Below are positions 7,138 through 43,238 of a stretch of DNA of 64,000 nt, one piece after another. The stretch is from Pyrrhoderma lamaoense. Its lineage: Eukaryota > Basidiomycota > Agaricomycetes > Hymenochaetales > Hymenochaetaceae. The translations under genes and the position numbers were made by a program. The notes beneath the pieces are model-generated. The model saw nothing but the letters and a program-made list of their open reading frames with translations, ran no database searches and was not told where the DNA came from. Within the stretch, counting starts at the first letter, position 1; every line of letters begins with the position of its first letter. The stretch is taken from positions 1 to 64,000 of the forward strand of contig NBAZ01000015.1 in the NCBI GenBank assembly GCA_002794735.1. The letters run 5' to 3'.

Positions 7138-7301
7138 CTCCCACCTGATCCTAGCAGTCTGCCAATCCAATCATCTTTGTGAACAACTGCACTTTAATTC
7201 TCCCCAGTGCTTTGGTCATCAAGTCTGCAGGCATTCCATCTGTTCTCAAGTGCAAGATCTGAATAACACCCATGTTTACTTGATCTCTGAGCCAGTAGTA
7301 T
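7138..7301 (-). pseudogene. Copia RNase H tail (Copia-3 fragment)
   Basis: Reverse-strand fragment encoding the last 50 or so residues of copia RNase H, ending in a stop just before a polypurine tract. Its wording (YYWLRDQVNMGVI, MPADLMTKALGRI) matches the end of Copia-1 at about 2505-2650. It is cut at about 7301, where a family B LTR fragment begins. Confidence 0.85.
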
Positions 7302-7530: not shown

Positions 7531-9266
7531 TGTTACAGTTTCCTTAAAACTAAGAGATCAGCGCAATCTGCAACCTTAGTAATAGAGGTTCAATAACTCA
7601 GATAAAGCAACTCTAATCTTGTCATCAAAAAAGGTGGGCTAGCAGTGTGTTGAGTAGTTGATCAGACTAAATAGACACCTAGTCCGGTTAAAGCTAACGA
7701 GCAGTTGGTGCTTCTTCAAGATAGGGGGTCTCAAAGTCGTTGTGCTAAGTGCTGAGGACACTACAAGTAGACTGTGACAAAGAGGTAATTATATGAAGTG
7801 TTGACTAAGGTATTGATTTAACCTGAATGATGCCAATGCAATAACTCATAGTATGTTAATGTGGTCCTTCTTGAAGAGTATAAAAGTAGTCTCTGCACTG
7901 TACAGCAATAGAGAACAAGTAACGATATTAGAGAAAACTAGATGTTCTACCACAATATAGACACCCAAAGCAACACCTTTGCCAGCTGACAACAATCTTG
8001 ACTGAGCACAGGTATTGTACTTCAAGTGTAGTTAAGAACTTATTACCAGTAGATGACTTTTACCACCAGTTGTTGGCTATAAGTGAGTCTGAACAATCTA
8101 CTCTACAATGTCCAAAGGTCCTTCTTTTATAGCCTTCATCAACACCCATTATGCCATGGGTATTCCTTTATCCTAACCATAACCCTAAGGGCCCTTGCTC
8201 CACAAGTCCCTGAAGACCCTGTGTGTCCAACACACATCTAAACTCTTAATATTCCTGCTCCACTGTCCATACATTTGCATTACTCTCTGAAATCCTGAGA
8301 CCCTTAGATCTGATCTAGAGGGATTTACAATCTTCTGACCCTGAGTTAGGGTCCACTGCCCTGAATCCTTGATAGCCCCAATTGTGGCTGAACTGTGTTG
8401 TGTATTCACTCCACAAAGATCCTGTATGGTCCGTGCTGACCCAGCAGGCCACACATTGTTCTGCTTTGAAGTAATGATGATATCCCCATCATATATATCC
8501 AAGCACATCGATTAACTTGAGATAATCATAGACTTTCCTTGGTAACTGACGGAGTAAGAGTATTCCCCATTCTGGGGGGTTCTGTGGTATCACTTGATAG
8601 TGAACCACACTACTGCTGCACTGTTCATTGTGCTGGTGTCTAGTATATTCCATATTCATTAAGACCACAATTCTGACTTGACCCCAGACCTTTTCCTTTC
8701 TTTTTATCTCCAAGAAAGTAATGTAGTGAAAGATCCAAACACCTTGCTCCCAATGAGGGAATTCTCAAATGAAATCGCCTGTCCAGTACTTCTGTACTTG
8801 TACTGTAAACTTGGTAACATCCACTCCCATCTCGAAGAGAGTTGTCCAAGTAATCCAATAGAGATCCAATTGTAACAAATAAGCCTTTTGGCAATTGACA
8901 CACCCTACTCTGGTCTGATACTAAAGGACTCATTCCACCTGACTGTGTACTTGAGATTTGCTAGTTTGTTTTGCTTCATGTACAGCTATACAAACCACCT
9001 ACTTCTCCAGTAGGATTTGGTAAGGTCCTATGTTGTGATTCTATCCAACTACAGACTTGATCCAGCAATGGCTCTGCTAGCTGCGCATGTAATTGTTCAA
9101 ACACTGCAGGCCTTTTTTCATTTTGAGAAAGAACTTCCTTGTGTGATATGGCTGAATTCCCTATTGTTCGTAATAGGCAGGATTTGCAGCTTCCTATATT
9201 TGGTTTGTGTTTGATCTCCAACTTAGCCGATGATCCGTGAATCTTCAAACCTCCAATCCCATAACA
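7531..9266 (-). repeat. Long LTR family A, copy 1
   Basis: A 1736-bp unit beginning TGTTACAG and ending CCATAACA, matching the complete copies at 25334-27088 and 39457-41186. The LTR reads on the reverse strand: the U3 ORF remnants (9248-8185) are followed by a TATAAAAG motif near 7880. The flanks AAAGT and TGCAC do not match, so one side was rearranged after insertion. It is the most decayed of the three copies. Confidence 0.85.
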
Positions 9267-16807: not shown

Positions 16808-18037
16808 CTATTTTCTAACCTTAGCAAGTATGGATTTATCGCTATTATCTGTATGATATTGCCATAATAACTCCGGTGAGTTTTCCAGATTTGAAATAAG
16901 TTCCCAAGAATCATCATTTTCTTGATATCCTTTCCATTGGACTTTGTACTGATTAGGATATTCTTTAGTATCAAAATCTATTATTTTTTCTACTTCATAT
17001 TCTGGTTCTCCATTTATTACTTCCGGATCTGGATGAGCAAATTGTTCTCGATTTAGGTTATCATCCTTATTATATAGTTTTAATAAGGACTCATGAAATA
17101 CAGGGTGTATTCTCATGGTTCGTGGCAATTCCAATTTGTAAGAAACTTCGCCAATCTTTTCTATGATGGTGAAGGGTCCTAGATGCTGATAACCAAGTTT
17201 CCGGGATGGTATGTTCAAATTAAGGTTTTTGCTGTTAAGCAATACCTTATCTCTGATTTCGAAGTTGGCTTTATCTCTACAAGTTTTATTTTCATGCCTT
17301 TTTATAGCTTCTTGTGCTATTTGTAATGCCTTTTGTGCTTCTATTTGCGCTTGTTTTGCTTTGTTAGCAAAATGATCTGCTGCTGGGATGTTCCCAGGTT
17401 CGTTTAACCAGGTTAACTTCAGTATAAAATCATATAAGGCTTTATAAGGCTCCATTTGTATAGCTGAGTGATAGTTAATATTATAGGCAAATATAGTATC
17501 ACTAAGATGTGTATCCCAATCGTCTTGAAGGGTATTAGTATATCCTTTTAAGTAGTCCTCAAGAACTTTATTAGTTCGTTCAGTTTGGCTATCTGTTTGG
17601 AGATGATAAGTTGTGCTTAATCCCGGTGTTATTCTAAGTTTTTGGAGTATACTCCGAAAGTATGCACTAGTAAACTGAGTTCCTCTATCAGAGACTATTT
17701 TTCTTGGTGCTCCATAATGATGGAATATAGTCTTTAAGAATATATTTGCCGTTTGTTCCGAAGTTATATTGCTATTGCAAGCAACAGAGTGAACTACTTT
17801 TGTTAAGTAATCTTGTATAACAAAAATTGCATTTTTTCCACTTTGAGTTCATGGTAAAGGCATTATGAAGTCACAACTAAGGATTTCCCATGGCTGTTGT
17901 GATATCTCCATAGGTTGGAGAGGAGGTTGTATCTTTTCTCTTTGTGTCTTTGTCCTTTGACACACTTTATATATTGAGACATATGCTTCAACATCTTGTT
18001 TATCTTTCCACCATTTAAACTCCTGATGTAGCTTAAC
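16808..18037 (-). pseudogene. Gypsy-3 pol segment 1 (integrase C-terminus, chromodomain)
   Basis: The reverse-strand 3' part of a third chromovirus. Bases 17455-16808 are open and encode the integrase C-terminal domain (HLGPFTIIEKIGEVSYKLEL) and a chromodomain (EVEKIIDF...YKVQWKGY). Bases 17456-18037 hold the integrase core with several stops, and the zinc-domain end (CQRTKTQREK) is near 17950. The segment stops at 18037, where Gypsy-2 inserted with TSD TTAAC, and resumes at 24569. Confidence 0.9.
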
Positions 18038-18484: not shown

Positions 18485-18518
18485 TTACTCCCCTCTCAAA
18501 GGCAATCGTCTCGATTGC

Positions 18519-23498: not shown

Positions 23499-24079
23499 CT
23501 TGGGCTGCGGTCACTATCGTAGTCTTCTGGGTGGTCTCTGAAGTAGTCTTCTCGAGTGTACTGGATGGAAGTGTTAGATGGAGAGGAGTGTGGTGGGGTG
23601 GGGTCACTAGCAAGCTCTGGGTAGATCTGGGAGAAGTCTTCAGTCTGTAAGTATGTAAGGCTTTCGACTTCGGCTTCTTCCTCTTCTCTAACAGTGGGCC
23701 CTGCTCGTATACCTCTTCTTCTTCTGAGAAAACGTCTAGCACGTCTAAGTCTTCGCTCTTCTTCTTCTGATTCGTCTGTTGACTCTACAATGGGCTGTCC
23801 CACTGGCAGAGGTTCGTCTGGGTTCGCAGGTTCGTTCTCAGGCTCTACAATAGGCTGTCCTACTGGTAGAGGCTCGTTCTGTTCGTCTGTTGCTTCGAAG
23901 TGCTCTACTCGATGGGCGTATCCGAACCCAAAGAGTTCTCTTCCTTGTGCGTTTAGTGAGCAGTAAGTTCTGGTGTTGGAGGTGTCGATGATAAGGATGC
24001 AAACGAGGAAAGTGAAGATATAGAAGTGGTAGGTGTAGCGGTAGTATTCCTCCAGCTTGGAAGATAAGAGTGTGTGGTG
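23495..24079 (-). CDS. Open frame upstream of Gypsy-2 gag (ORF0)
   Basis: A frame open from about 24079 to a TGA at 23495-23497 that overlaps the gag ATG. It begins soon after the PBS. It encodes a hydrophobic stretch (FYIFTFLVCILII, about 24015-23977) like a membrane anchor, then a tandemly repeated PLPVGQPIVE phrase, then an acidic/Arg-rich block (DESEEEERRLRRARRF) and a long acidic segment. No in-frame ATG lies upstream of the acidic block, so it would need a non-AUG start or could be non-coding. Gypsy-3 has a similarly placed frame. Function unknown. Confidence 0.4.
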   Translation of the reverse strand, partial: HHTLLSSKLEEYYRYTYHFYIFTFLVCILIIDTSNTRTYCSLNAQGRELFGFGYAHRVEHFEATDEQNEPLPVGQPIVEPENEPANPDEPLPVGQPIVESTDESEEEERRLRRARRFLRRRRGIRAGPTVREEEEAEVESLTYLQTEDFSQIYPELASDPTPPHSSPSNTSIQYTREDYFRDHPEDYDSDRSPR

Positions 24080-24107
24080 TCAAGAAGTAGTGAGGTAGGC
24101 GATGAGT

Positions 24108-24118
24108 AGTTTCAACCT
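24108..24118 (-). promoter_or_regulatory. Gypsy-2 self-priming PBS
   Basis: AGGTTGAAACT on the reverse strand, two bases inside the LTR, is an 11-nt perfect complement of AGTTTCAACCT in the 5' LTR (24249-24259), which lies about 30 nt after a TATA motif (24288-24295). Eleven nucleotides is the length used by Tf1. Confidence 0.8.
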
Positions 24119-24120
24119 AA

Positions 24121-24568
24121 TGTCAGCAACTAAACCCGGATCTGTAGTCAGAGTCCGGCCTAAGTCACTAATCAACAAGTATCAACAATAGTGGAGAGTA
24201 ATAAGATGTATTGGGAGTAGCTCCAGTGCCGAGTCAGGAGAGTAGACAAGGTTGAAACTGGGGATTATCTACTGACAGAGGTGCTACTTATATACAGTTT
24301 GAAGCGTGTGACGTGACAGTGTGATCATGGACAGAAAAGGAAAGAAATAGAATGTGATAGAACATGGTAGAATGTTGAAGAATATAGAAGAATGGAAATG
24401 TCCGTAATGGATCGGAGTTTGTCAATAAGGATGAGTAAAGAAGAATGGGTTAAGGGTTGTGGAGTAATATGGATTAGTAAAGGGGTCCGAGGTATGTAAT
24501 GGGTTTTAGTAATGTGAGAAAGAGGAAAAAAGGCATGAGAATAAGGGAACAAGGAAAAGTACATGACA
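24121..24568 (-). repeat. 5' LTR of Gypsy-2
   Basis: A 448-bp LTR nearly identical to 18038-18484. The differences seen are a 1-base G indel and two C/T changes. Confidence 0.95.
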
Positions 24569-25333
24569 TTAACTAAGGTACAATGTATTCCTGGATGTCT
24601 TGCTGTAAATCCATCATGGACTTGTTTTAGGATCTTGTTTCGAAGTTCTTTATTTGGTGGTATCCAAATTAGAGGTCCTATATAGTGAATTTTACCATTA
24701 GTATGGTAGTCACTTCGTAATGTCCATGACTGTTTATTTCCTGCCAGTGTCTTTTCTTCTTCCCAGTTAGGTTCCTAGTAAGCATCTTTGATTTCTTTTA
24801 ACAAAGGATCCTAGTTAATTATAGCATTCATAGTTTTAACCATTATAGGTTGAGCTTTTGTTTCAAGTTCCTTGGTTATTTCTTTGCCCATAAGTAAACT
24901 TTTGGGAAGTAAGGTTCCAATTATTTTTTTGGGTTCCTTTTCTTTGCCTTCTGGGACATAATCTGGTCACCTGGATAAAGCATCAGGTATAGTGTTACTT
25001 TTACCTGGCTTATATTCGATTTGAATCTTGTATGGTTGCAAGATTTCATACCATTGGAGTTGTCTATTATTCAACTCATTGGCTTCCATAAAATACTTGA
25101 GGTTATGATGATCAGTACGGATTATGGTTTTCCCATTAAGATGGTGTTTCCATTGCTTGAAAGCTCGAAGTATAGCCAACATTTTCCTGTTATAGACTGG
25201 CCATCTTGCTTCTGTAGGAGTGAGTTTCTTTGACAAAAAGGCTACTGGTTTTTCAATATTATCAGGTCTTTTCTGAAGTACTACTGCTCCTGTAGCATAT
25301 TTGAATGCATCAGTCTTGATAATGTATAGTTTG
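24569..25333 (-). pseudogene. Gypsy-3 pol segment 2 (RNase H, integrase zinc domain)
   Basis: Reverse-strand continuation of the old chromovirus between the Gypsy-2 and LTR-A insertions. RNase H (ARWPVYNRKMLAILRAFKQW; RTDHHNLKYF; ending IPDALSR) occupies 25236-24967. The integrase N-terminal region follows to 24569 with several stops. The right edge carries TSD GTTTG of the LTR-A. Confidence 0.88.
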
Positions 25334-27088
25334 TGTTATGGTTTCCTTAAAACTAAGGGATCAGCACGATCTACAACCTTGGTAATAGAGGTTCGATAAC
25401 CCAGATAAGCAACTCTGATCCTTTCGCCAAAAGGGGTGGGCTAGCCGTGTGCTGAGTAGTTGATCAGACTAAATAGACACCTAGTCCAGTTAAAGCTAAC
25501 GAGCAGTTGGTGCTTCTTTAAGGTAGGGGGTCTTGAAGTCGTCGTGCCAAATGCCGAGGACACTACAAGTAGATTGTGACAAAGAGGTAATCACGTGAGG
25601 TGTCGACCAAGGTATTGATTCAACCTAAATGATGCCGATGCAATAACTCATAGTACAATAACGTGGTCCTTCTTGGAGAGTATAGAAGTAGTCTCCTCAC
25701 TGTACAGCGATAGAGAACAAGTAACGATGTTAGAGAAAGCTAGATGTTCTACCACAATACAGATACCCTTAAAGCAACACCTTTGCCAGCTAACGACAAT
25801 CTTGACTGAGCACAGGTATTGTACTTCAAGTGTAGTTGTAACTTGTTACCGTTTTACAGCTATAAGAGAACTTATTACCAGTAGATGGCTTTAAGTGAGT
25901 CTGAACAATCTACTCTACGATGTCCAAAGGTCCTTCTTTTATAGCCTTCATCAACACCCATTATGCCATGGGTATTCCTTTATCCTAACCATAACCTTAA
26001 GGGCACTTGCTCCACAAGTCCCTGAAGACCCTGTGTATCCCACACATGTCTGAACCCTTAACGTCCCTGCTCCGCAGTCCATACGATCGCATTACTCCCT
26101 GAGACCCTGAGACCCTTAGATCTGATCTAAAGAGATTCCCAATCTCCTGTCCCTGAGTTAGGGTCCACTGCCCTGAACCTTAGATAACTCCAATTGTGGC
26201 TGAAGCGTGTTGTGCATTCACTCCACAAAGACCCTGAATGGTCCGTGCCGACCCAGCAGGCCACACATTGTTCAGCATTGAAGTATTGGTGATATCCACA
26301 TTGTATGTATCCAAGCACATCAATTAACTTGAGATGATCGTAGACTTTCCTTGGTAGCTGACAGAGTAAGAGTATTCCCCATTCTGGGGGTCCTTTGGTA
26401 TCACTTGATAGTGAACCACACTACTGCTGCACTGTTCTTCGTGCTGGTGTCCAGTATGCTCCATATTCGTTAAGACCACAATCCTGACTTGACCCCAGAC
26501 CTTTTCTTTCCTTCTTATCTCCAAGAATGTAATGTAGTGAAAGGTTCATACGTCTTGTTCCCAATGAGGGAATTCTCGAATAGAATCGTCTGTCCAGTAC
26601 TTCTGTACTTGTACTGTAAACTCGGTAGCATCCACTCCCATCTCGAAGAGAGTTGTCCAAGTGATTCTATAGAGGTCCAATTGTAACGAATAAGTCTTCT
26701 TGCAATTAATACACCCTACCCTGGTCTGGTACCAGGGGACTCGTTCCACCTGACTGTGTACTTGAGATTTGCTAGTTTGTTCTGCTTCATGTACTGCTAT
26801 ACAAACACCTACGTCTCCTGTAGGATTTGATAAGGTCCTAGTCTCTGACCTTTGCCGTGATTCTATCCAACCACGGACTTGATCCAGCAATGGCTCTGCT
26901 GGCTGCGCATGTAGTCGTTCAAACACCGCAGGCCTTTCTTCATCTTGAGAGAGGACTTCCCTGTGTGACATGGCTGAGTTTGCTATTGTTCATAATAGGC
27001 AGGATTTGCAGCTTCCTATATTTGGTTTGTGTTTGATCTCCGACCTAGCCGATGATCTGTGAATCTTCAAACCTCCAATCCCGTAACA
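25334..27088 (-). repeat. Long LTR family A, copy 2 (solo)
   Basis: A 1755-bp unit, TGTTATGG...CCGTAACA, with TSD GTTTG on both sides (25329-25333 and 27089-27093), inserted in Gypsy-3 RT/RNase H. A 5-bp TSD plus TG...CA ends fits a solo LTR. On the reverse strand the U3 ORF (26971-26324) is followed by TATAAAAG near 25945. Confidence 0.9.
26324..26971 (-). CDS. LTR-A U3-encoded ORF, copy 2
   Basis: First ATG at 26971 (MSHREVL). The frame runs to about 26546, then continues with one frame change through KVWGQVRIVVL to QVIPKDP near 26380. It contains VGCINCKK (a CxxC), a Trp/Phe-Pro region (KYWTDDSIREFPHWE) and a hydrophobic beta-like stretch followed by HTGHQHEEQC, a His/Cys cluster that could bind metal with the CxxC. 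I recognise no described family. It lies sense to the LTR and upstream of its TATA box. See copy 3 for the longest version. Confidence 0.5.
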
Positions 27089-27470: not shown

Positions 27471-27863
27471 TCAGTGTTTTTCTTCAGTCTTTGTATAGAT
27501 GATAACATCATCCATATCATCATCACTTCCTCCAAAGAGGTTATTATCCCATTGCTGCTCCTTGGTCACCAAGGGTTTCTTCTTCTTTACAAAGCATTGA
27601 ACAGCTTTGTGGCCAGTTTTGCCACACTTGTTGCAAGTCCTTTTAAATTGGGATTTCAGGTGTTGGTGTCTTTTGTTAATCCAACCCTTCTTCTTCTTGA
27701 ATGCATATCTTTGTGCATCCACATCCATCGGATTGCCCCATCCTTTAGGCATTTCCTTTATAGTCTTCTGAGGGGTATATTCAGTATAATATAAGGCATT
27801 AATCTTCTTATTCATTTCCAAATCAATCGCATTCTTCTTCCAATCTGGTAGTGTCCAGGTACC

Positions 27864-28177
27864 TGTCAGCGACCAGCAGAGCCTCTACTTGATAAGTACT
27901 AAGTGTGAGCAACACAAAGTAGGGAACAAGTGTATTGAGGTATCGGGATAAGACAAGAACAAAGCTAAGTTATACATGAGTTACTAAGCGGTCTTATATA
28001 TCTAATGATTCTGGGAAAAGTATGAGGTAATAACTACATAGCACCCGATCACCTGACTCCCAGTGACTAAGCCAATCACATGACAACCGGTAACCCTCTT
28101 AGTAACCATTTACATGATAGAAGAGAAATAATAAGAAAATGAAAGAAATAACTACAAGTTCGTTTCCATTCATAACA
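27864..28177 (-). repeat. Solo LTR of Gypsy-1
   Basis: A 314-bp Gypsy-1 LTR in reverse orientation with perfect TSD GTACC (27859-27863 and 28178-28182), inserted in Gypsy-3 gag. At the sites that distinguish 5' from 3' LTRs of the full-length copies it is mixed: 5'-like first, then mostly 3'-like, as expected after LTR-LTR recombination. Confidence 0.92.
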
Positions 28178-28509
28178 GTACCTGAATCTTTATAAGACTC
28201 CAAGGTTACTCTAACACTTTCTTGAAGTCCTTTCTTGAATACTCTTCAAAGAAGAGGTTCTGTGTAATAAGCAGGTAGTTGTAAAACTATATCCTTGAAT
28301 AGAGTTATGTAGTCATGTACACTACCCTTTCCTTGTTTGATAGCATCGAGTTTGGCTTCTGCATCTTTAGTTTTATCAGCTTTCCCAGCTCTATCCCACA
28401 GCCAATTCTTAAAGGCTTCGTAATTCTTCCATGCTCCAGTTGTTGCATCCCAAGTTGTAACTCCGTTTACTGTATTTGTTATGGAACCAAGTCTATTTTT
28501 TCGCTTTTT

Positions 28510-29280
28510 TGCTTACTAAGCAGCTTACATAAGCATCTTACATAAGTGGATTATCTAATCATCTTACATAAGCTGCTTACTTAAGCATTATTACTTAAGC
28601 ATCTTATCTAATCAGCTTAGTCAGCATGCTTACCTAATCACTTGCATAATATGCTTACATAAGTCGCTTACTAAGCACTGACTCAGCATATGACTCAGCT
28701 GTCTTATTAAGCATCTCATCTTATCTTATCTTCACTGCTTACTCATCTGTTCTAGAACATTCTAGAACATTCCACCATGTTCTACCACCTTCCATCATTC
28801 TCCATGGCCATCTTTCCCCATTTGGTTTAGTCCCCTTTGTAATTAGCCTATTTTATGTTTCAGCTAGCACAGCCTAGTTTAGCCTCATAGTTTAGCCTAT
28901 TTCTTATGTTTCATCTAACACAGCCTAGCACAGCTTAGTTTAGCCTAATAGTTTAGCCATAGACCCTGCCGGGTTTTTTCATTATTCCCACACTGCCTCC
29001 CACATGTATAAATACCCCCCTCCTGTCAGTAGCTAGTCCCCCAGTCTTGATCTTGTCTTCCCTCCTAGACTAGTACCTTCTAATACATCTTCTTGTCCCC
29101 TCCTCACTGTTCTTCCCCTCCTCTTGTCCCTCCTCTCCTCTGTCTCTGTCTATATCAGTGTATACTGGTTGTGCCTTGTCTTCAGACCCTGCTGACTAAG
29201 CATTCTGCTGACTAATACTGGTACTAGAACTAGTCATTGCTGACAGTATTTGATACTTGTACTAGCTTTTCTTCAGTCCA
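28510..29280 (+). repeat. Solo LTR of a fourth family (LTR-D)
   Basis: A 771-bp unit starting TGCTTACTAAGC and ending CTTCAGTCCA, flanked by TTTTT on both sides, inserted in Gypsy-3 gag. The first 230 bp are packed with short palindromic motifs of the form TTACNTAAGC. TATAAATACC at about 29007, followed by pyrimidine-rich DNA, gives the orientation. The A/T-only TSD makes the exact ends less certain. Confidence 0.7.
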
Positions 29281-29480
29281 TTTTTCGACTATAGGTTGTG
29301 CTTAAGCAGATGCAGGTTTCTGCAAATGTTGTAACACAAATCCTACTTTTTTTTCATCTGTATCCAGTTCTGCTGCTTTAAATTGAAGGCTTGCATGATA
29401 AAAGAAGTTGGCTAAATCATCATTCTTCTTTCCATCATATAGGACAAGCCTGGCAATAACTTTAGATGTAGCAGCCATAA

Positions 29481-30143
29481 TTAGTTAAGTTCTTCTTCAC
29501 TGGATTCATCATAGTAAGTGACTGGTTCAGTAGTTACTGTGTTGGTAAAATGAACTTCAGATGTATCTGCTTGATACTCTGAGTCTGGGCTGGAGATGTG
29601 AGTAATAGGGTCAGATGGAATTTTTTGACCAATATTTCTGACTACTTCTGTGGGTAGACTGGCTAAATGTTGAGTAAATTCTTCATTTTTTTTATTGTCT
29701 TTGTAAACACTGAGTTCTATAAACTGTTTGAAAAGTTTTAGAAACTCGGAGTGATTCTGGAAATTCTGTGAGATATAGGAATCAATCTTCCTTTCTTGTT
29801 CTCATCTATCACAAAGCTGTACTTGGAGATTCTTTATTATTTGGTGAGCTCTTTCAGTTTTCTTTTCTGTTCTTGTGTATTTAGTGTCCAAGTAATTAAA
29901 CTTTGATGTGAGCGTAGACAAGTATTTGTCAATATCTGCAATGGTTTGTAATGTGTCACCATGCTTTTGAACGACCTGAATAATGGTTTCTCTAATAAGG
30001 TGAAAAGAGTCTTCTACTTTGTCAAGCTTTGCTTTAATAGCTTTGTTTGCCAAGTGGTTAACTAGGAGTGAGGTAGAAACAACTGTTATGGCAAGGTAAA
30101 CAGTTTGTTCTATAAATCTAGTGCTTGGAGTATGATATTCTTC
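29481..30143 (-). pseudogene. Open frame upstream of Gypsy-3 gag (ORF0, membrane segment plus coiled coil)
   Basis: Reverse-strand frame from 30143 to TAA 29481-29483, two bases before the gag ATG, with one internal TGA (29802-29804). It begins near the PBS with a hydrophobic segment (YLAITVVSTSLLVNHL), then a heptad-like helical stretch (KLDKVEDSFHLIRETIIQVV; KKTERAHQIIKNLQVQL) and an acidic tail (DESSEEELN). As in Gypsy-2 there is no clear in-frame ATG. Its position, hydrophobic start and acidic end match the Gypsy-2 frame, though the sequences differ. Function unknown; envelope-like or scaffold roles are only guesses. Confidence 0.5.
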
Positions 30144-30195: not shown

Positions 30196-30207
30196 ATTGA
30201 AATCAAT
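30196..30207 (-). promoter_or_regulatory. Gypsy-3 self-priming PBS
   Basis: ATTGATTTCAAT on the reverse strand, just inside the LTR end (30209), complements ATTGAAATCAAT in the LTR at 30397-30408, about 30 nt after TATATAAGG (30436-30444, reverse strand). This is the third independent case of the same arrangement in the window. Confidence 0.75.
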
Positions 30208-30502
30208 ATGTTAGGATCTGTATTGATCTGCTTGTATAAGCAAGGGAATAATACAACTAAGCGTAATTATATAAGATGCTCTTGTACTTAGTATCACAGT
30301 GTTCAAAACAGAAACAACTTGTAAGCCAGATATACTGACAGATGATAATGATGTATCAGATGTAAACAGATTAGCTGTCTTTGGGTTTGTGACAAGATTG
30401 ATTTCAATGAGGAGATCTTGGTCAAAATCGACCTCCTTATATACATCTACTACATGTGAACTAACTACCCGTTTAATTATAATACTATTATTATATTTAA
30501 TC

Positions 30503-30580
30503 TGTGGCACTTAGTGTGGCACCATTGTGGCACATTTCATTTGTGGCACTTGTATCCATGTCTCTAGCAATTTGTGGCAC
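30503..30580. repeat. Five TGTGGCAC motifs in the Gypsy-3 U3
   Basis: TGTGGCAC occurs at 30503, 30515, 30526, 30542 and 30573, all on the same strand within 78 bp, upstream of the LTR TATA box. This has the look of an enhancer with a repeated factor-binding site. Confidence 0.75.
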
Positions 30581-30772
30581 TAATTAAAGTGTCTAATTTG
30601 TCCTTCATCCACAAGCATTAAGCTTGTTATATTATTTATAACTGCATTTGTTGCTGCATCCATTATTACAATCACCTGACTTGTGAATTACTGTATTCGT
30701 ATCGTGAGAATTTATTTGACCAGCGCACCCACTCCAGTGTGGGAATATCTTCTTAGCCCAGCCTCGGGCTTG

Positions 30773-31378
30773 CTAAGAGGAATGGCTAGTCCGCCATTCA
30801 TATTGTGGATGGTCTGACGCAATACTTGTTCTAGCATGGGCTGATGGATTGTTTCTATCCCATTCTTCTCTTGGAAGAATAGTATTAATGTGTGGTAGTA
30901 TAGGGTGTTCCCTATTAAGCATGACTGGTAATGGAGGACTTTCTTGCTGTGATATTACTGGAGGTGTTATTGATCGAGTTCTGTTAAGAGTGATCCAATC
31001 TACTCTCTCAAATCCTAGACAAGGAGCTTTATTATATGTTTTGTATATCATTCCTCTCCACAGTGTGTGCATTTGCATTACAAAGTGATTTGTCTCTTTT
31101 TCATCTATAATCATTAAGCCTGGTCTTCATAGTACAAAGCTTTTGTCTGTAGCTCTGATTACAGATTTATGAATTGCTTCCTTGATTTCTTTTGAAGCTT
31201 GCTTGTGTAATATAACACATATTGAGAATGCTACTAGGATTGGTTCTCCATGGTTTCTAACATCTAGCATTGCTTCGGAGCGAACTTGTAGTTCAGGTTG
31301 ATCGGGGTATATGCCTTTAAATGTTTCCTCTAACCAAAGGTGGTTCTGTACTCTTGTTATGTTATGCAAGGTGGTATT
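30773..31378 (-). pseudogene. Gypsy-3 LTR U3 ORF, split by Gypsy-1b
   Basis: Reverse-strand frame running from beyond Gypsy-1b (about 38990, FDMHTNNYPYN) into 31378-31127 and, after one TAG-type stop, 31114-30773 (ending EWRTSHSS). Visible features are a Trp-rich start (HLWLEETFKGIYPDQPE), a hydrophobic segment (PILVAFSICVILHK) and a Pro-rich tail. Further upstream at about 39105 the degenerate frame has ICCTCY, a CxxC. The layout resembles the LTR-A and LTR-B ORFs. No known family is recognised. Confidence 0.45.
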
Positions 31379-31383
31379 GTAGG

Positions 31384-31697
31384 TGTTATGAACAGAAATG
31401 AACTTGTAGTTATTTCTTTCATTTTCTTATTATTTCTCTTCTATCACATAAATAGTTACTAAGAGGGTTACCAGTTATCATGTGATTGGCTTAGTCACTG
31501 GGAGTCAGGTGATCGGGTGCTATGTAGTTATTACCTCATACTTTTTCCAGGATCATTAGATATATAAGACCACTTAGTAGCTCATGTATAACTTAGCTTT
31601 GTTCTAGTCTTATCCCGGTACCTCAATACACTTGTTCCCCACTTTGTGTTGCTCACACTTAGTACTTATCAAGTAGAGGCTCTGCTGGTTGCTGACA
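31384..31697 (+). repeat. 5' LTR of Gypsy-1b
   Basis: TGTTATGAAC...GCTGACA. Its R-U5 part resembles the 5' LTR of Gypsy-1a more than its own 3' LTR. Confidence 0.93.
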
Positions 31698-32096
31698 TTA
31701 GAACAAAGCTACTCATTGTCTTGTGCTCATTATCTATCACAACACAATCCCTTTTATTGTCTCACTATAGGAGGGGGGGGGACCAGTGCTTTCATCATTT
31801 CTCCACGTAAACTTTCCCACACCTTAAACCCCTATTACGTCATCATCTACATTACATCATCATCCGCTCACCTAATACTCTGTTATCAGTGGTGTGCTCA
31901 AGGCTAGCCATTGTCTAAGGGTACTTGATTTTAAGCTGGCTTTACATTTACGTATCTTCTTTCATCACACCCTTGTTCACACCTTTGTACTCACCTCTAT
32001 CAATGCCTACCCACCTATACAACTCTGGTACAAAGGGCTATCTTTCCAGATCTTCTTTAACATCAACAACAGAGGAACTACTTTAGCTTGGCAACA

Positions 32097-33209
32097 ATGG
32101 AGCAGGATAACATAGAACAACAACAACAACAACAGCCGCAGGTGCCACCACTCTCACTAGCACCACCAACTGTCGAGCAGCTACAACAACAGCTTTGGGT
32201 CCTTAGAGAAGAGATTGAAGGGACCAATAATGTAGTGAAAGGACTTATGGCACTAGTCGAATGGCAGCAGCACCCAGCCTCTCATGCCAAGATCCATGTA
32301 GCTAAACCAGAGCCTTTCAACAGCAAAGACTATGATATCTTCATCCGGTCTGTCATCACTTACCTACGAGCAGCCCGAGCTGACTTCCCAGATGACAAGT
32401 CCCAAACACTGTTCGTATTATCCTTTATAAAGGGAGGTCACGCAGGTGTATGGGCAGAAAACTACTTAGAATCTGCTTACAACAATAACAGAGACTTCAA
32501 AGACACTAGTCAAGAATTCATTAACAAACTGGCAGCAGCTTTCTCTGACCCCAATAAGAAAGCAAATGCACAACAAGACCTGAAGAGATTTCAAGTGGTT
32601 AAACAGTCCTATGATGAGTTTTTCCAGCAGTTTGAGATCTACTTACAGAAAGCAGGCTACAACTCTGTCTTGCATGAACCTTACTTGATCTTGCTACTGA
32701 AGAAAGTGCTACTCAAGGATACCCTCACTTTCATTATCAGCTCTCGTCCTACCCCTGTAACTTACAAGGACTGGAAAGAGCAAGCAATGCTTCATGAGAA
32801 GACTAAACTAGAACTGAGAGTGATATGAGGGCAAGGCACCTCCTTACTGAGCACATTCAAACCACACCCCCAGAACAACCCACCTGCCGCTTGCCCAATG
32901 AATGAGACCCCTATGAAACAAGACCACTTGGGAACCATGTTTACAGGACTTGGGCAGCCAATGGATGTGTCAGTGGGTCAGGCTCGATGACGAGGTGGCT
33001 GCTACTTGTGTGGAAAAGTTGAACATTTTGCACGCAAATGTTCCAACCAAAAGACGCAGATCCGGGCAATCTTGCGTGCTATGAGTGGAAGTGAGAGGAA
33101 AGCATGGGCAGATGGAGTAGAAGAGTTAAAGGAGAGTGACTTTGAGGAAAAAGGTGAGAATGAGGATGAGACAGAGTTTGAGGAGGGTTTTGTGGCGGCC
33201 CAAGCATAA
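32097..33209 (+). pseudogene. Gypsy-1b gag
   Basis: ATG at 32097 (MEQDNIE), then poly-Gln, a gag helical domain and a decayed zinc knuckle (CGKVEHFARKC: the Gly before His is Glu). TGA at 32826 and about 32988 replace CGA Arg codons of copy 1a, consistent with C-to-T at CpG. Unlike 1a the N-terminal Trp codon (near 32199) is intact. The stop at 33207-33209 (TAA) is where 1a has the ATGA overlap, so the pol ATG is lost here. Confidence 0.9.
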
Positions 33210-36200
33210 ACACGGCATGTGAGGGCAATGACTCGGTTTTCTCTTTTTTCCCATGGCCAATTTCAGAAAAAATGGACAAAACACTAATACAAAATCAGAA
33301 AATGTCAAAACTTCCATAAAAAAATGTTGTACTTCTAACCTTGTAACTTTTAAAAATGACTCTATTTCTTCTGCTTCTTTTTCTTCTAATAAAACTATTT
33401 ATTCTAACTCTTTGACCAAGTCATTAAAACCCGTGAAACCAAAAATACGACAACAAGATCTGTTAGAGCCATTTTCAAATCCTTGGATGGTGCAAAGGAT
33501 ACGAGAAGACTCTGACAGTCAAGTACGTCCAGTGTTACTTTCCCTTATTCCAGAGGGGCGCAGAGAGGAAGTGAAAGATGAATTGTTGGAGGAAATATGG
33601 AGAATGGGTAAAGAGGATGCAGAGGTGGCAGTAGGGATGATGAGGGAGCCAATTCGGTTTGTGAAAGAAGGCAGGAGGAGGCAGTTGACGGTCCCAGTTA
33701 TGGTTACAAGGCTAGACAACAGCTCACGAATAGGCACTAGAGCTCTTGTTGACAGTGGGTGCACAGGATCATGCATCAATCAGCACTTCGTCATAGACTA
33801 CCAAATACTTACACGCAAAACACCACTTGCAATACCAGTCTATAATGCTGATAACACTCTTAACAAGAATGGCTCAATCAGGGAGTTCGCCACCTTGCAA
33901 CTAACTATTGATGATCATTCTGAGCGTATTGACCTCGCTGTCACGGACCTAGGGGACACGGACTTGTTTCTCGGGCACGATTGGTTAAAAATCCACAACC
34001 CCTCAATTGACTGGACTGATGCAACACTGTGTTTTAACTGATGCTCAGCCCAGTGCGGATATAACCAAGCCAACTGCGAAAGGGAACAAGACGTAGAGAT
34101 TGGGCTGAATCCAGAGGATGATCTAAAACCAGGGGATCAGATTTTCTTCTTTGACTGGGACCAATATGTTGAAAAGAATTGTCGAATAGTGCAGCGGAGA
34201 CCACAAGAGGTGACCCCTGACTATGTTAGGGACTTCTCCGAGGTCTTTAGTGAAGAAGAATTTGATCACCTCCCAGAACGACGTCTTTGGGACCATGCTA
34301 TTGAGCTCACCCCAGGTTTTTCCTCAGCCAATTGCAAAGTCTACCCATTTAACCGAGAGGAGCAACAAGTTCTTGATGAATTTCTGGCAGAAAACCTACG
34401 AAACGGTCGCATTCGCCTTTCTAAATCGCTCATGGCATCTCCTTTCTTCTTTGTCAAGAAGAAAGATGGTAAACTTTGTCCAGTACAAGACTATCGTAAG
34501 CTTAATCAGGGGACAGTCAAAAACAAGTACCCGCTACCCCTGATTCAAGAACTTATCGATAAAACGAAACAAGCCAAATATTTCACCAAGCTTGATGTCC
34601 GTTGGGGCTACAACAATATACGTATAAAAGAAGGAGATGAGTGGAAAGCAGCTTTCAAAACTAACCGGGGGCTGTTCGAACCCACAGTGATGTTTTTTGG
34701 GTAAACCAACTCCTCAGCCACTTTCCAAAGTTTCATGAACTCTATCTTAAAAGACCTAGTAGATAAGAGGCATGTTATTGTTTATCTAGACGACATCCTC
34801 ATCTATACCATGGACTTGAAAAAGCATGACCATATTGTGCGACAAGTGCTAGAAATCCTAAGGCGGAATCGACTGTACCTATGATTCGAGAAGTGCACTT
34901 TTGCTCAAAGCACTATTGAATACTTAGACTTCATCGTAGGCAATGGAGAAATCTGCATGGATGCAAAAAAAGTTGAAGCCATTCAAACCTGGCCAGAACC
35001 CAAGAACCTTACAAATGTCCAATCATTCCTGGGTTTCTGCAACTTCTATCGTTGATTCATAAAAGACTTTAGCAAAATAGCAAGACCTCTTAACCGGTTG
35101 ACTGGAAATGTGAAGTGGCAGTGGGGAGAGGAGGAGCAAAAGGCTTTTGAGGGTTTGAAGGAGGCAGTAAAGAGTTTCCCAGTGTTAGCAGTGCCCACAA
35201 ACAAAGACCCATTCAGAGTCAAGAGCGATGTATCAGATTTTGCAGTTGGAGCAATCTTGTCTCAAAAACAGGAAGGCAAATGGCGCCCCATTGCATACTT
35301 CTCCCAATCCATGTCACAAGCAGAATGCAACTATGCAATCTATGACAAAGAGATGCTAGCAATCATGCTTGCCTTGCGGGAATGGAGGCAGTATCTTTTA
35401 GGAGCCAAGCACTCTGTTGAAGTATGGACAGACTACAAAAACTTATTCTACTTCAAAGCTTCACAAGATCTGAACCGCAGACAAGCACAATGGGTTACTG
35501 AACTGGCTGATTACAATTTGCAAATTGTACCAAAGGCTGGAAAAGAGATGAAAAAGGCTGACCTCCTCTCGAGATGAGCAGATCATGAGAGGGGGGAGAA
35601 TGACAACAAAAATGTCACTTTGTTGAAGCCTGAGTGGTTTATCCACAACGTGACCATTGAATCTCTTGACACAAATTTGGTCCAAAGAATCAAAGACAGT
35701 CGTAAACTAATAGACAAGTCAGTTAAAAAAGCACTAGACACAAGAAACAAGGAATGGTGATGTGAGGATGAGGGCTTGGTATTCTGGGAGCACAGGCTGT
35801 ACGTGCCACAGGATGCAAAGTTACGAGAAGACATCATCAGAGTACACCATGATGACCTTCTCGCAGGCCACCCAGGGTGACACAAGACTCACAAACTGAT
35901 CACACGGAGTTACTGGTGGCCTGGAATCTCTACTCAAGTGCGTACATATGTCTCAGGCTGCGAAGCTTGCCAAAGAACCAAGACTCACCGGGAAAAGAAA
36001 CACGCCCCGCTAAACCCCAATGAGATACCATCAGAACTATGGAAGATCATCTCTGTAGATCTAATTGGTGAACTACCAAAATCACAAGGGTTCAATGCCA
36101 TATGTGTTATTGTGGATCGCTTTAGCAAGCAGATACATGCAATTCTCACCAACACAGAGCTGACTTCAGAAGGTATGGCAAAGATCTATCATGACTAGGT

Positions 36201-36686
36201 ATTCAGGCTCCATAGCATCCCTCAAAAGGTTATCAACAATTGGGAACCACAGTTCAAGTCTAGCTTTATGAGAGACTTATACCGATTATTGGGGATAGAA
36301 GTGAACCCATCCACTGCATATCATCCCCAAACTGATGGCCAGACCAAGTGAATCAACCAAGAGATCGAGCAATACCTTCGGATCTATATCAACTTCAGAC
36401 AGAACAGCTAAGCAGACTGGTTAGCCATTGCAGAGTTTGTTTACAATGACAAAGTACAAGTGTCTACGGGCCACTCACCATTTTTTGTCAACCACGGTTG
36501 TCATCTTTACAAAGGCTCCAACCCTTGTGTAATAGCTCATAATGAATCTGCCCAGCAGTTCAAGAAACGCATGAGCAAAGTTCAAGAGGAAGTAGAGGCT
36601 AGTCTTAAGATGGCAGCGGAGACGATGAAATGGTTCTATAACAGAATTAAAGGGGAATCTATTATATACAAGAAAGGTGACAAGGT

Positions 36687-38103
36687 TGTTATGAATATAT
36701 TCCAAGGGTCAAATGGGACTTAGGTAAGAGGGAGTGAGACCTAACTTGATAACCTGTGATGAGGGTAACAGTAACACCAGACCACTGCTTAGTGCTAAGG
36801 AAGTAACACCAAGAGTTTGGGAAACAACAAGCTAGTATGGAATGCCCTCTATTGGAACTTCCTTTTAGAAGTATCCTCAACCCTGTATCCAAGTCTTCTA
36901 AATAACAGTGTCTCTCCCTGCTTCTTCTTCTTTCTGATTGCCTCTTTTAAGCAAAGTACAATAAGTAACAAGGTATAGCCTAAAGAGTGATGATTAGAAG
37001 ACAAGTTTGGGGTAAGAAATCACAGTTTTATTAACTGTTTCTTGACCCTGAACTTCTGCTTCTTTTATACTCCACAAGACCCTTGATCTCTGATTAATCT
37101 ACTGACTACTTATGGTAATATTCTGCCTCCTATGCCCTCAACCCTTCTGAACCTTAACTGTGCATTGCTGTGCAAGTGCTGCAGATGGCTGCGCATTACT
37201 AAGGCTAAGACTGTGCATTGCTGTGCTGGCTGCCTTGTCCTGAGAATCCTGATAGATCTAGATTAGACTCCAATAACCCTTCTGTCCCAGTATCCCCTGT
37301 GCTAGTCCTGAGCATAGATTGTCCACCTCTCTCTCAACTGTATCTAGTATTGGTGTTGTCCCTGTTCCACTCTTGACCATTAGGATGCAGTTCTAAGAAA
37401 GTAACTTGTAAGGCAGTAAGTGCTTTCAGTAGAGGATTAATAGGCACATCTGTCCTATGTCTAGTATCTCTACTGTATTGAGCCAAGAACTCTGTTACAT
37501 TCTGATGCCTGATGAACTCAAAAAGATTGAGTTGTATGAGTCCATACAATTGCTGACTTTCTGTGGAAGCAGCTTTAAAGAGTGTGGAAGTGTGGAAGAC
37601 CAAGGTGTTGGGGCAAGAGTGATCATGGCTGGCCCAAGTTATATAAACAAACACTTCCCATTTGAATTGAGAAGTTCTATCTGGGCTGAGTAGGCTGAGA
37701 GATCTGGTAAAGCAGTTCCTCCAGGTATTAGAGTGTACTTCAAAGATGGGAAAAAGATAATCCCATTTAGCAGTAGAATAGATCATAATAGGTGTGATCT
37801 GTAGTAGCACAGTATTGGCCATTAGTCCTAGAGTATAGTTGAACAAGTGTCCTTGTAACTGAATAGCCTGGTTGCACAGAGTGCATCTATGTTCAGCATG
37901 AACCAAGCCTCCAGCTCCTTCTAGTAGAGACCCCATAGCTTGATAGCTAGCTTGCTCCCCCCAAGTAGTGCTAGTCATAGGGTTCTGATTAGGTGAGGGC
38001 CCCATTAAGTAATCCTTCATAGTAGTCCAGTCCAATATTCCACATTTCTTCTATTAGATCAATCCTCCACTGTAAACAAGCCCTCCCAAATCAAACCCTA
38101 ACA
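36687..38103 (-). repeat. Long LTR family B (solo), inserted in Gypsy-1b
   Basis: A 1417-bp unit, TGTTATGAAT...CCCTAACA, with TSD AAGGT (36682-36686 and 38104-38108). On the reverse strand it starts TGTTAGGGTTT, carries an ORF (38020-37334), then GTATAAAAGAAG near 37068, and ends at 36687. The layout is the same as LTR-A and the Gypsy-3 LTR. Confidence 0.88.
37334..38020 (-). CDS. LTR-B U3-encoded ORF
   Basis: An uninterrupted reverse frame with first ATG at 38020 (MKDYLMG), about 228 residues, in otherwise stop-rich repeat DNA. It has HRCTLCNQ (CxxC, about residue 45), a helical stretch, a Trp/Phe-Pro region (KWDYLFPIF), a hydrophobic beta-like segment (FKWEVFVYITWASHDHSC, with His and Cys) and a C-terminal helical region (LIQLNLFEFIRHQNV). 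No signal peptide or known domain is recognised. Being open over more than 680 bp suggests selection until recently, but chance is possible. Confidence 0.5.
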   Translation of the reverse strand: MKDYLMGPSPNQNPMTSTTWGEQASYQAMGSLLEGAGGLVHAEHRCTLCNQAIQLQGHLFNYTLGLMANTVLLQITPIMIYSTAKWDYLFPIFEVHSNTWRNCFTRSLSLLSPDRTSQFKWEVFVYITWASHDHSCPNTLVFHTSTLFKAASTESQQLYGLIQLNLFEFIRHQNVTEFLAQYSRDTRHRTDVPINPLLKALTALQVTFLELHPNGQEWNRDNTNTRYS

Positions 38104-38634
38104 AAGGTCTGGTTGAAAGCTACCAACATAACCACCAAACGACCCATGAAAAAGTTAGACAACAAAAGACTGGGTCCATTCACGGTTGTAGAAAAGGTTG
38201 GCAAAGTTGTATACAAGTTGAAGCTACCAGACACTTGGAGAATCCACACCGTATTCAATGAAGTTCTGTTATCTCCATATCACTCCCCCCAGTTCAAGTC
38301 ACAGCAACGACCACCACCACCGCCACCAGAGATTGTAGATGGGAATGAAGAATGGGAAGTGGAAGAAGTGTTAGGAGCTAGGTTAGTGGGACGTGGAGCG
38401 TTACAATTCAAGGTGAAATAGAAAGGGTATTTGCATGAGCACAATCAGTGGTTGCCAGCGAGCTACTTGAAGAATGCGCCCAAGGTTGTAGCTGAGTTTT
38501 ACCAACAAAATCCACTGGCCCCTCGCAAACTATATAGCGTAAACTTCCAGCAACTATCATTCCAACCTGTCTATCGGTTCATTGACCCACTCGCGGAATA
38601 GAAAACAAGGACATTTTGCATAAGGAGAGGGTGA

Positions 38635-38948
38635 TGTCATGAATGGAAACAAACTTGTAGTTATTTCTTTCATTTTTTTATTATTTCTCTTCTATCACAT
38701 AAATGGTTACTAAGAGGGTTACCAGTTATCATGTGATTGGCTTAGTCACTGGGAGTCAGGTGATTAGGTGCTATGTAGTTATTACCTCATACTTTTTCCA
38801 GGATTATTAGATATATAAGACCGCTTAGTAGCCCATGTGTAACTTAGTTTTGTTCTTGTTTTATTCCAGTACCTCAATACACTTGTTCCTCACTTTGTGT
38901 TGCTCACACTTAGTACTTATCAAGTAGATGCTCTGCTGGTCGCTAACA
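38635..38948 (+). repeat. 3' LTR of Gypsy-1b
   Basis: A 314-bp LTR after AAGGAGAGGGTGA. It shares 3'-type states with the 3' LTR of Gypsy-1a and has private changes of its own (GCTAACA end). Confidence 0.93.
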
Positions 38949-39456
38949 GTAGGGATAGTTGTTTGTATGCATATCAAACCATCCGTAATTATTGTAGTAC
39001 CTCTAATCTTCCTTCTGGTTCTTGATTAAGGCTTTTGTTATTCATATAGCCATATTATTACATATCTCTTCTATTTCCTGTATTATTCTATAACAGGTAC
39101 AACATATGTTTTGGGGTCTGTCCCGGCTGGTTGATGAACCTCATGTGATCTTGTCATTAGACATGATGTAAGCACTTTATAATCATTATTGGTAAGCCTA
39201 AAGTTTGGAAATCCTAACAAAATCTTGATTTATTATAGACTCTTTCACATTCTTTAACATTTTACAACATTACATCTTTTTTTTTTCATTTATAATCACA
39301 CTGTCATATCACACACTCTAAACTGTATATAAGTAGCACCTCTGTTAGTAGATAGTTCTCAGCTTCAACTTTGTTTATTCTTTTGACTTGACATTAAAGC
39401 TACTCTCAATTCATCTTATTATGCTCCACTACTGTTAATACTTGGTGATTAGTGAC

Positions 39457-41186
39457 TGTTACGGGATTGGAGGTTTGAAGATTCGCGGATCATCAGCTAG
39501 GTCGGAGATCAAACACAAACCAAATAAAGGAAGCTGCAAATTCTGCCTATTACGAACAATAGCAAACTCAGCCATGTCACACAGGGAAGTCCTCTCTCAA
39601 GATGAAGAAAGGCCTGCGGTGTTTGAACGACTACATGCGCAGCCAGCAGAGCCATTGCTGGATCAAGTCCGTGGTTGGATAGAATCACGGCAAAGGTCAG
39701 AGATTAGGACCTTACCAAACCCTACAGGAGACATAGGTGTTCGTATAGCTGTGCATGAAGCAAAACAAACTAGCAAATCTCAAGTACACAGTCAGGTGGA
39801 ACGAGTCCCCTGGTACCAGACCAGGGTAGGGTGTATTAATTGCAAGAAGACTTATTCATTACAATCGGACCTCTACAGGATCACTTGGACAACTCTCTTC
39901 GAGATGGGAGTGGATGCTACCGAGTTTACAGTACAAGTACAGAAGTACTGGACAGACGATTCTATTCGAGAATTCCCTCATTGGGAACAAGACATATGGA
40001 CCTTTCACTACGTTACATTCTTGGAGATAAGAAGGAAAGAAAAGGTCTGGGGTCAAGTCAGGATTGTAGTCTTAACGAATATGGAGCATACTGGACACCA
40101 GCACGAAGAACAGTGCAGCAGTAATGTGGTTCATTATTAAGTGATACCAAAGGATCCCCCAGAATGGGGAATACTCTTACTCCGTTAACTACCAAGGAAA
40201 GTCTACAATCATCTCAAGTTAATCGATGTGCCTGGATACATACAATGGAGATATCACCAATACTTCAATGCTGAACAATGTGTGGCCTGCTGGGTCGGCA
40301 CGGACCATTCAGAGTCTTTGTGGAGTGAACGCACAACATGCTTCAGCCACAATTGGAGTTATCTAAGGTTCAGGGCAGTGGACCCTAACTCAGGGTCAGG
40401 AGATTGGGAATCTCTCTAGATTAGATCTAAGAGTCTCAGGGTCTCAGGGAGTAATACAATTGTATGGACTGCGGAGCAGGGACGTTAAGGGTTCAGACAT
40501 GTGTGGGATACACAGGGTCTTCAGAGACTTGTGGAGCAAGTGCCCTTAAGGTTATGGTTAGGATAAAGGAATACCCATGGCATAATGGGTGTTGATGAAG
40601 GCTATAAAAGCAGGACTTTTGGACATCGTAGAGTAGATTGTTCAGACTCACTTATAGCCGTAAAACGGTAATAAGACATCAACTACACTTGAAGTACAAT
40701 ACCTGCGCTCAGTCAAGATTGTCGTTAGCTGGCAAAGGTGTTGCTTTAAGGGTATCTGTATTGTGGTAGAACATCTAGCTTTCTCTAACATCGTTACTTG
40801 TTCTCTATCGCTGTACAGTGAGGAGACTACTTCTATACTCTCCAAGAAGGACCACATTATTGTACTACAAGTTATTGCATTGACATTGTTTAGGTTGAAT
40901 CAATACCTTGGTCGACACCTCGCGTGATTACCTCTTTGTCACAATCTACTTGTAGTGTCCTCGGCACTTGGCACGACGACTTCGAGACCCCCTACCTTGA
41001 AGAAGCACCAACTGCTCGTTAACGTTAACCGGACTAGGTGTCTATTTAGTCTGATCAACTACTCAGCACACTGCTAGCCCACCCCTTTTGGGCAAAAGGA
41101 TTAGAGTTGCTTTATCTGGGTTATCGAACCTCTATTACTAAGGTTGTGGATCGTGCTAATCCCTTAGTTTTAAGGAAACCGTAACA
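39457..41186 (+). repeat. Long LTR family A, copy 3 (solo)
   Basis: A 1730-bp unit with perfect 8-bp terminal inverted repeat TGTTACGG/CCGTAACA and TSD GTGAC (39452-39456 and 41187-41191). The U3 ORF is sense, upstream of TATAAAAG at about 40603. Confidence 0.92.
39574..40140 (+). CDS. LTR-A U3-encoded ORF, copy 3 (longest)
   Basis: ATG at 39574 (MSHREVL), 188 residues to a TAA at 40138. In copy 2 that codon is CAA, so the parent ORF was longer. The frame is also open upstream to the LTR start, with CKFCLLR. Features: GCINCKK (CxxC), WTTLFEMG, KYWTDDSIREFPHWE, KVWGQVRIVVL, HTGHQHEEQC. Two CxxC pairs and a His/Cys cluster suggest metal binding. Across copies, substitutions leave the frame largely readable. 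Function unknown; the position is analogous to the U3 sag gene of MMTV only in layout. Confidence 0.5.
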   Translation: MSHREVLSQDEERPAVFERLHAQPAEPLLDQVRGWIESRQRSEIRTLPNPTGDIGVRIAVHEAKQTSKSQVHSQVERVPWYQTRVGCINCKKTYSLQSDLYRITWTTLFEMGVDATEFTVQVQKYWTDDSIREFPHWEQDIWTFHYVTFLEIRRKEKVWGQVRIVVLTNMEHTGHQHEEQCSSNVVHY

Positions 41187-42908: not shown

Positions 42909-43238
42909 GAGAGAAATTATTTCTACATATTTTTCATTTTTCACTCATGTATTCCATGTATCTCTTATCTGCATCCTTTCCCCTGTACACGTACTTTTAA
43001 TATCATTAAGATTGTAATACCATTTTAATTAATGACTTATTTTATACATGTGCTGAGGTGTTTGATCACGCAACCCTAAAAGGGGAATCGAAGGCAGCGG
43101 ATGATGTCAGCTCCTTTTAAAGCGATGTGAGATGATTCCACCCACGTAGCGGTATCTCCTTCCTACCCTCACGATAGGAGGAGGTGTCTCAACTACAACA
43201 ACTATACCAAAGGACCGTGTTCATCCCCCCTTTTCACA

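Follow-up and report, generated by a model that had tools for sequence, protein, structure and literature searches.

Long terminal repeats (LTRs) of retrotransposons are normally treated as non-coding and are used as neutral clocks, and self-priming of the Tf1 type is encountered among chromoviruses. A gene located wholly within an LTR is already known from mouse mammary tumour virus (MMTV), of which the superantigen (Sag) gene lies in the 3' LTR and is expressed by splicing (PMC3026287), while accessory frames of other elements have been described either ahead of gag or in the interval from pol to the 3' LTR, as far as the available text of the reports cited here goes. For example, plant and rotifer elements carry additional open reading frames (ORFs) that are likewise family-specific and of varied or unassigned function, including captured ORF3s in rotifers (PMC5408684) and, in plants, frames that, unlike those described below, are mostly located between pol and the 3' LTR (PMC7264820). 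Retrosat2 combines long LTRs with an ORF0 before its gag-pol frame (PMC3485330); in the text available, none of these accessory frames is placed inside U3. The fungal chromodomain element crapaud of Podospora displays LTR variation that is concentrated in U3 before the TATA box (PMC10787394). This paper describes a stretch of 64,000 nucleotides (the window) of the basidiomycete Pyrrhoderma lamaoense (assembly GCA_002794735.1, contig NBAZ01000015.1, positions 1 to 64,000), in which three types of long LTR, here designated LTR-A, LTR-B and LTR-C, carry a sense ORF in U3 (ORF A, ORF B and ORF C, respectively).

The arrangement resembles that of MMTV in that a sense protein gene lies wholly inside a very long LTR (about 1.3 kb in MMTV, 1.4-1.8 kb here; PMC3026287), but host and element class differ, and the U3 ORFs lack a viral Pfam match (none for ORF A and ORF C at an E-value of 0.1, and none for ORF B at an E-value of 1). 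With chromoviruses such as the Tcn1 clade, the elements have gag, protease, RNase H, integrase and a 5-bp target-site duplication (TSD) in common, as well as, in the C element, a chromodomain and a self-priming primer-binding site (PBS); they differ by their 1.4-1.8 kb LTRs with a U3 gene and by a frame before gag (PMC2864245). A Tcn1-clade element from a non-seed plant is described with 440-bp LTRs and no recognised PBS in the accessible part of the same report (PMC2864245). The crapaud element differs in having LTRs of 339-443 bp, for which promoter or enhancer evolution was proposed and no U3 gene is named in the text available (PMC10787394).

The U3 frames of LTR-A and LTR-C are protein genes that are kept by selection between jumps. 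In all three LTR types the frame starts close to the LTR start (ATG at a distance of 55 bases in C, 83 in B and 117 in A) and ends before the TATA box, a layout that an earlier note on this DNA had recognised in each of them. The TGTTA...TAACA ends reported in that note were also recovered, and exact 5-bp TSDs flank many of the fetched copies with both ends (20/29 LTR-A rows, with L033 counted twice, 5/7 LTR-C and 2/5 LTR-B), which therefore represent separate insertions. The size of 190-230 codons proposed earlier fits ORF B (228 codons) and is too short for the other two, of which unbroken natural copies elsewhere encode 281 (A) and 273 (C) amino acids; the copies of ORF A and ORF C in the window are broken, A by two in-frame TAA codons and C by stops and a gypsy insertion. 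In the genome searched (30.65 Mb, 72 contigs), stop-free matches, query copies included, amounted to 17 of 32 for A over residues 1-281 and 6 of 11 for C over residues 1-273. A possible genome-wide loss of open frames, raised by the earlier note, was thus checked by counting natural copies without a consensus, and the frames survive.

Ratios of non-synonymous to synonymous substitution rates (dN/dS) were determined for 16 of 27 copies of A, from which stop-bearing copies were left out, and for 6 of 7 copies of C; the frameshifted copy L014 was also excluded from the list of broken A copies. Pooled dN/dS was 0.163 for A (120 pairs, mean dS 0.177) and 0.162 for C (15 pairs, mean dS 0.116), and the non-synonymous share of the differences was far below expectation (0.398 against 0.710 in A, 0.390 against 0.712 in C), on the basis of which both frames are considered selected protein genes. 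Moreover, differences at first, second and third codon positions displayed a third-position excess (1227/799/3661 in A and 92/76/294 in C), which was absent from the last 560 bases (R-U5) of the same 16 LTR-A copies (1239/957/1055 by column modulo 3). The expected shares come from a neutral control, in which the same changes were redistributed at random among sites matched for base and CpG class (100 runs each); it would have kept just 11% (A) and 26% (C) of the copies stop-free. The frames of A and C are thereby confirmed as genuine genes, as the earlier note had suspected, under purifying selection and open in many copies.

It is therefore highly improbable that the open frames merely reflect the youth of the copies and their base composition, without any protein. 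Several copies are indeed young, as illustrated by LTRs that are 99.93% alike in one C element and by the A copies L015 and L022, which differ at 2 bases, but dN/dS, codon-position bias, the neutral control and the lack of bias in R-U5 already contradict this explanation for A and C, and for these two frames chance openness is ruled out. For ORF B the evidence is weaker: one of four near-complete genome matches, the window copy itself, is stop-free, and comparison of this copy with decayed ones yielded a non-synonymous share of 0.50-0.68 against neutral means of 0.68-0.78, lower in every row and by 4-5 standard deviations in the best rows, several rows being overlapping loci of one copy. The frame of LTR-B was thus probably also a protein gene kept by selection between jumps, with a weaker trace than in A and C.

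The element delimited by LTR-C is a young, self-priming chromovirus that encodes a chromodomain and has an additional frame ahead of gag. A complete copy is located elsewhere in the genome (C44:18382-33662), with two 1469-base LTRs that are identical at 1468 of 1469 positions, a TSD ATAGC, a purine run before the 3' LTR, and a PBS, ORF0, gag and protease after the 5' LTR. Its ORF0 is open over 218 codons (L071 1617-2270), its gag of 308 codons matches the Pfam families Retrotrans_gag (E 6.8e-10) and Ty3_capsid, and its chromodomain is encoded inside the element on the same strand (C44:25452-25598). The PBS, ATTGATTTCAAT, is exactly complementary to a 12-base stretch of R, which begins 35 bases downstream from where the TATA box starts; it was found in the window copy and in C44, and only 1 of 500 shuffles gave an equally long complement. 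In the window, an element of the same kind as C44 survives as a wreck.

For LTR-A, a copy on contig C19 is followed by an extra frame of 162 codons (L069 5440-5925, minus strand), a gag with zinc knuckle and a protease (L069). The reverse transcriptase (RT) of the A type was read from the same contig and strand (L073), the interval between gag and RT holding a nested gypsy element and being partly read, and a minus-strand chromodomain (C19:421549-421704) lies in a frame of 1058 amino acids between two same-strand LTR-A copies. A self-priming match was not found for A in the one 5' LTR copy available, of which the start is damaged: the longest complement was 7 nucleotides, and 418 of 500 shuffles were as long. 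To our knowledge, self-priming is not required of every chromovirus. The description of a self-priming chromovirus with a frame before gag, proposed in the earlier note for the entire group, therefore stands for C, whereas in A the frame is present and no self-priming match was found in the one copy compared.

In both elements the extra frame finishes, close to the start of gag, with an acidic or serine-rich run, and that of C has a hydrophobic start. A sense frame of 228 codons without a Pfam match (L070 274-957, C19) is located after pol and ahead of the 3' LTR in the A-type region; this LTR is separated from the same-strand chromodomain by approximately 5.7 kb, which leaves room for more accessory frames. 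Most of the fetched A and C copies with both ends appear to be solo LTRs; a purine run precedes 3/29 A rows and 1/7 C rows, which are likely 3' LTRs. An internal region was identified for the A and C types and none for B. The possibility that A and C are stand-alone DNA elements was ruled out by the C44 LTR pair with its PBS, polypurine tract (PPT), gag and chromodomain, and by the gag and protease of A.

It is considered likely that the U3 of LTR-A and LTR-C, and probably that of LTR-B, carries a protein gene of the retrotransposon itself, which would be translated from the 3' LTR end of the element RNA and would act in trans as an accessory factor. Retroviral reverse transcription copies the U3 of the 3' LTR into both new LTRs, and because of this a U3 gene is duplicated at each jump. 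The 5' copy would lie before the promoter, and the 3' copy would follow pol as the last part of the genomic RNA; owing to this position downstream of pol, the 3' copy is the likely protein template and presumably the expressed one, perhaps via a spliced RNA by analogy with MMTV Sag.

Several observations weigh against this proposal. The youngest complete C element seen, C44, has a stop in the U3 ORF of both its LTRs, leaving an open frame of 220 codons instead of 277, and it must therefore have moved with a shortened protein or with help in trans. Some close pairs of copies show no bias towards synonymous change (8 non-synonymous and 3 synonymous differences between L029 and L031), as expected of insertions that decay after landing. 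Furthermore, solo LTRs with exact TSDs make up 11 of the 16 unbroken A copies, and in a solo LTR-A the frame precedes the single TATA box that was recognised for the element. Three protein searches gave as relatives only four proteins from short ENA contigs, and the function is a guess, since no Pfam or PDB relative scored above chance (the best PDB match for A being deoxycytidylate deaminase, E 0.43); the single Pfam match at E 0.1 among ORF A and ORF C was that of a BIRD-IDD zinc finger to ORF A (E 0.064). The abundance of solo copies among the unbroken ones could also indicate that the protein is maintained by selection to the benefit of the host, or of the solo LTRs as a scattered family of genes, rather than of the element. 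This is judged quite improbable, as about half of the full-length copies are broken, and the relaxation in some close pairs is what would be expected if copies decay after landing and selection acts between jumps.

The U3 protein might be a zinc-binding nuclear protein that helps element RNA or DNA to escape nuclear retention or silencing, a tentative suggestion held with low confidence. Zinc binding is suggested by a Cys-x-x-Cys motif in all three ORFs (from residue 21 in C, about 46 in B and 87 in A) and by a further His/Cys cluster in A and B, which in 12 aligned A copies is invariant as H172-H175-H177-C181. As a guess, the nuclear role could be RNA export like that of CERV of Cer1 in C. 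elegans, or anti-silencing; CERV, an element-specific accessory protein described, in the portion of the report available, as without homology outside nematodes, is a model for the proposed role (PMC10309623).

Whether the three proteins belong together was addressed by profile-profile and single-sequence comparison, and the loose alignment on which the earlier note had based their homology was not upheld for the pairs involving C and is marginal for A-B. Profile comparison gave P values of 0.13 (A-B), 0.32 (A-C) and 0.32 (B-C), and with the broadest natural alignments 0.11 (A-B) and 0.3 (B-C); the observed profile score was reached by 5/150, 72/150 and 81/150 column shuffles for A-B, A-C and B-C, respectively. 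This test is weak both ways, because the effective depth of the A, B and C profiles is near 1. Single-sequence shuffles with three matrices gave p values of 0.036, 0.035 and 0.007 for A-B, 0.81, 0.61 and 0.25 for A-C, and 0.14, 0.30 and 0.14 for B-C. From the latter comparison the gagA control rows were dropped; before that, the z-score of A-gagA exceeded that of A-B with BLOSUM62 (3.22 vs 2.20) and BLOSUM45 (3.22 vs 2.30), the reverse being the case with PAM250 (1.81 vs 3.38), and the A-B value is therefore weak. The gagC controls did not exceed chance (p 0.18-0.92). In the A-B alignment, which is collinear over 90 columns, CxxC and a later H..C are in register, which at the level of sequence is suggestive, no more. 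Comparison of folds gave no result, as the models of A (P0003, 223 amino acids, without the last part) and C (P0001, 95% like ORF C) reached mean predicted local distance difference test (pLDDT) values of 35.0 and 36.0, i.e., below 37, and are useless.

The reading of the earlier note, in which the U3 proteins form one fast-evolving family inherited by a single chromovirus clade, is thus unlikely. The shared place, similar size and CxxC of the three ORFs agree with it, as does the A-B alignment (shuffle p 0.007-0.036), but A-C and B-C are at chance, and the other proteins of the A and C elements are distant. In the comparison of these, the C RT was represented by a 91-residue thumb piece from the window plus RNase H, and the RT, gag and protease of A each came from a single element region. 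The C thumb shows 37% similarity to its A counterpart, 46% and 45% to those of window gypsies with 450- and 314-bp LTRs, respectively, and 34% to that of another gypsy, nested at C19. Between A and C, the values are 30% for protease and 22-23% for gag, and pairwise comparison of their ORF0 revealed no detectable similarity. The pol of A and C being no nearer to each other than to the short-LTR gypsies of the window, these distances point to no recent ancestor that A and C would share to the exclusion of short-LTR gypsies.

The same distances, together with the lack of similarity of ORF C to A or B, count in favor of independent capture of the U3 genes by unrelated gypsy lineages, the long LTR being a result of the U3 gene. 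Captured additional ORFs are known in LTR elements of bdelloid rotifers, according to the accessible text of that report (PMC5408684). This is a reasonable explanation, albeit one given somewhat less than an even chance, as three families would then have arrived by chance at the same position and a similar ORF size, and protein searches of the own genome gave apparent LTR-frame copies or fragments and, three short A matches aside, no clear host relative. These three matches (C6:1439782-1439988, C20:14917-15027 and C20:48955-49065), which correspond to the initial 40-70 residues of ORF A at 57-73%, lie away from the listed LTR-A copies and could be remnants or a host relative. A wider and more doubtful reading would be that several chromovirus lineages in one genome placed a selected accessory gene in U3, duplicated at each jump, with solo LTRs as ready-made dispersed protein genes, and that the CxxC and His-Cys zinc site shared by A and B is the signature of a single ancient family in very rapid evolution, which modulates element RNA or silencing as a non-animal counterpart of retroviral Sag/Rev-type accessory genes.

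The locus at 30209-39219 consists of three nested elements, with LTR-C outermost, a plus-strand gypsy within it and LTR-B innermost, and is adjoined by a solo LTR-A; two further LTR-A copies are present in the window (Table 1). LTR-C, which the earlier note had named the Gypsy-3 5' LTR, is indeed a chromovirus LTR of the length given there (1441 bases; 1442-1470 bp in copies elsewhere), but it lies on the minus strand and is split in two by the gypsy. It was ruled out as part of the plus-strand gypsy, of which the own LTRs of 314 bp are too short to hold a U3 ORF of such size.

Table 1. Coordinates of LTRs, U3 frames and element remnants in the window.
Feature	Position	Strand	Remark
LTR-C, first 266 bases (U3 start), TGTTAGGAT...	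38954..39219	-	
LTR-C, other 1175 bases (U3 rest, R, U5), ...ATCCTAACA	30209..31383	-	
ORF C, N-terminal piece as matched	38946..39164	-	2 TGA and 1 TAG; final 8 bases fall in target duplication and nested gypsy
ORF C, rest	30776..31383	-	broken in window copy
TATA box of LTR-C	30436..30443	-	
Gypsy nested in LTR-C	31384..38948	+	LTRs 31384-31697 and 38635-38948 (314 bp), TSD GTAGG
Solo LTR-B, 1417 bp	36687..38103	-	TSD ACCTT
ORF B, 228 codons from ATG plus stop	37334..38020	-	unbroken
TATA box of LTR-B	37063..37069	-	sequence
Solo LTR-A, 1730 bp	39457..41186	+	TSD GTGAC
ORF A	39574..40416	+	two in-frame TAA, first 188 codons open
TATA box of LTR-A	40603..40609	+	
Solo LTR-A within C element	25334..27088	-	TSD CAAAC
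Older LTR-A after purine run (PPT-like)	7531..9266	-	likely 3' LTR of A-type remnant
PBS of C element, ATTGATTTCAAT	30196..30207	-	self-priming; 12-nt complement of R at 30397-30408
ORF0 (extra frame before gag) of C element	29805..30143	-	stop-interrupted here
gag of C element	27471..29478	-	broken, interrupted by 314-bp gypsy solo LTR 27864-28177
RNase H domain of C element	24967..25335	-	
Frame with start of integrase zinc-binding domain	24325..24774	-	24.6 bits (cut-off 25.5); portion below 24571 belongs to LTR of nested gypsy
C element integrase core, SH3, chromodomain	16808..17848	-	region 90% like C44:24417-25896; Chromo match E 1e-11 (16808-17845)

Within the integrase of the C remnant sits a 6.5-kb gypsy (18038-24571) with 450-base LTRs that are 99.3% alike and which, being inserted there, is younger than the C element. 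Just past the end of the C-type integrase-chromodomain region, a minus-strand segment (16140-16554) starts that matches the A-type 3' end beside a 3' LTR-A (C19:416582-416995), and another minus-strand segment (9267-9374) holds the frame that also precedes further copies of the 3' LTR-A and leads into the LTR-A at 9266-7531. The remnant thus reads as the 5' end of a C-type element fused to the 3' end of an A-type element, either through recombination or through a deletion between neighbours. Fragments of LTR-B at 7296-7530 flank the old LTR-A. Elsewhere in the window, positions 1-4554 form a long inverted repeat (arms 1-1057 and 3498-4554, 98%; inner pair 1059-1477 and 3079-3497, 99%), and a fungalysin-type peptidase gene is located at 43131-45146.

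No published U3 gene inside a fungal LTR was found in the open-licence literature, within the text available. With the U3 genes described here, the arrangement of the Sag type, as in a mouse retrovirus, would be extended to the gypsy elements of a fungus, and the LTR length of 1.4-1.8 kb would be explained. A selected U3 gene breaks the assumption that LTRs are non-coding neutral clocks and turns solo LTRs into potential protein genes. Finally, the U3 ORFs supply a set of uncharacterised candidate proteins for the regulation of the elements.

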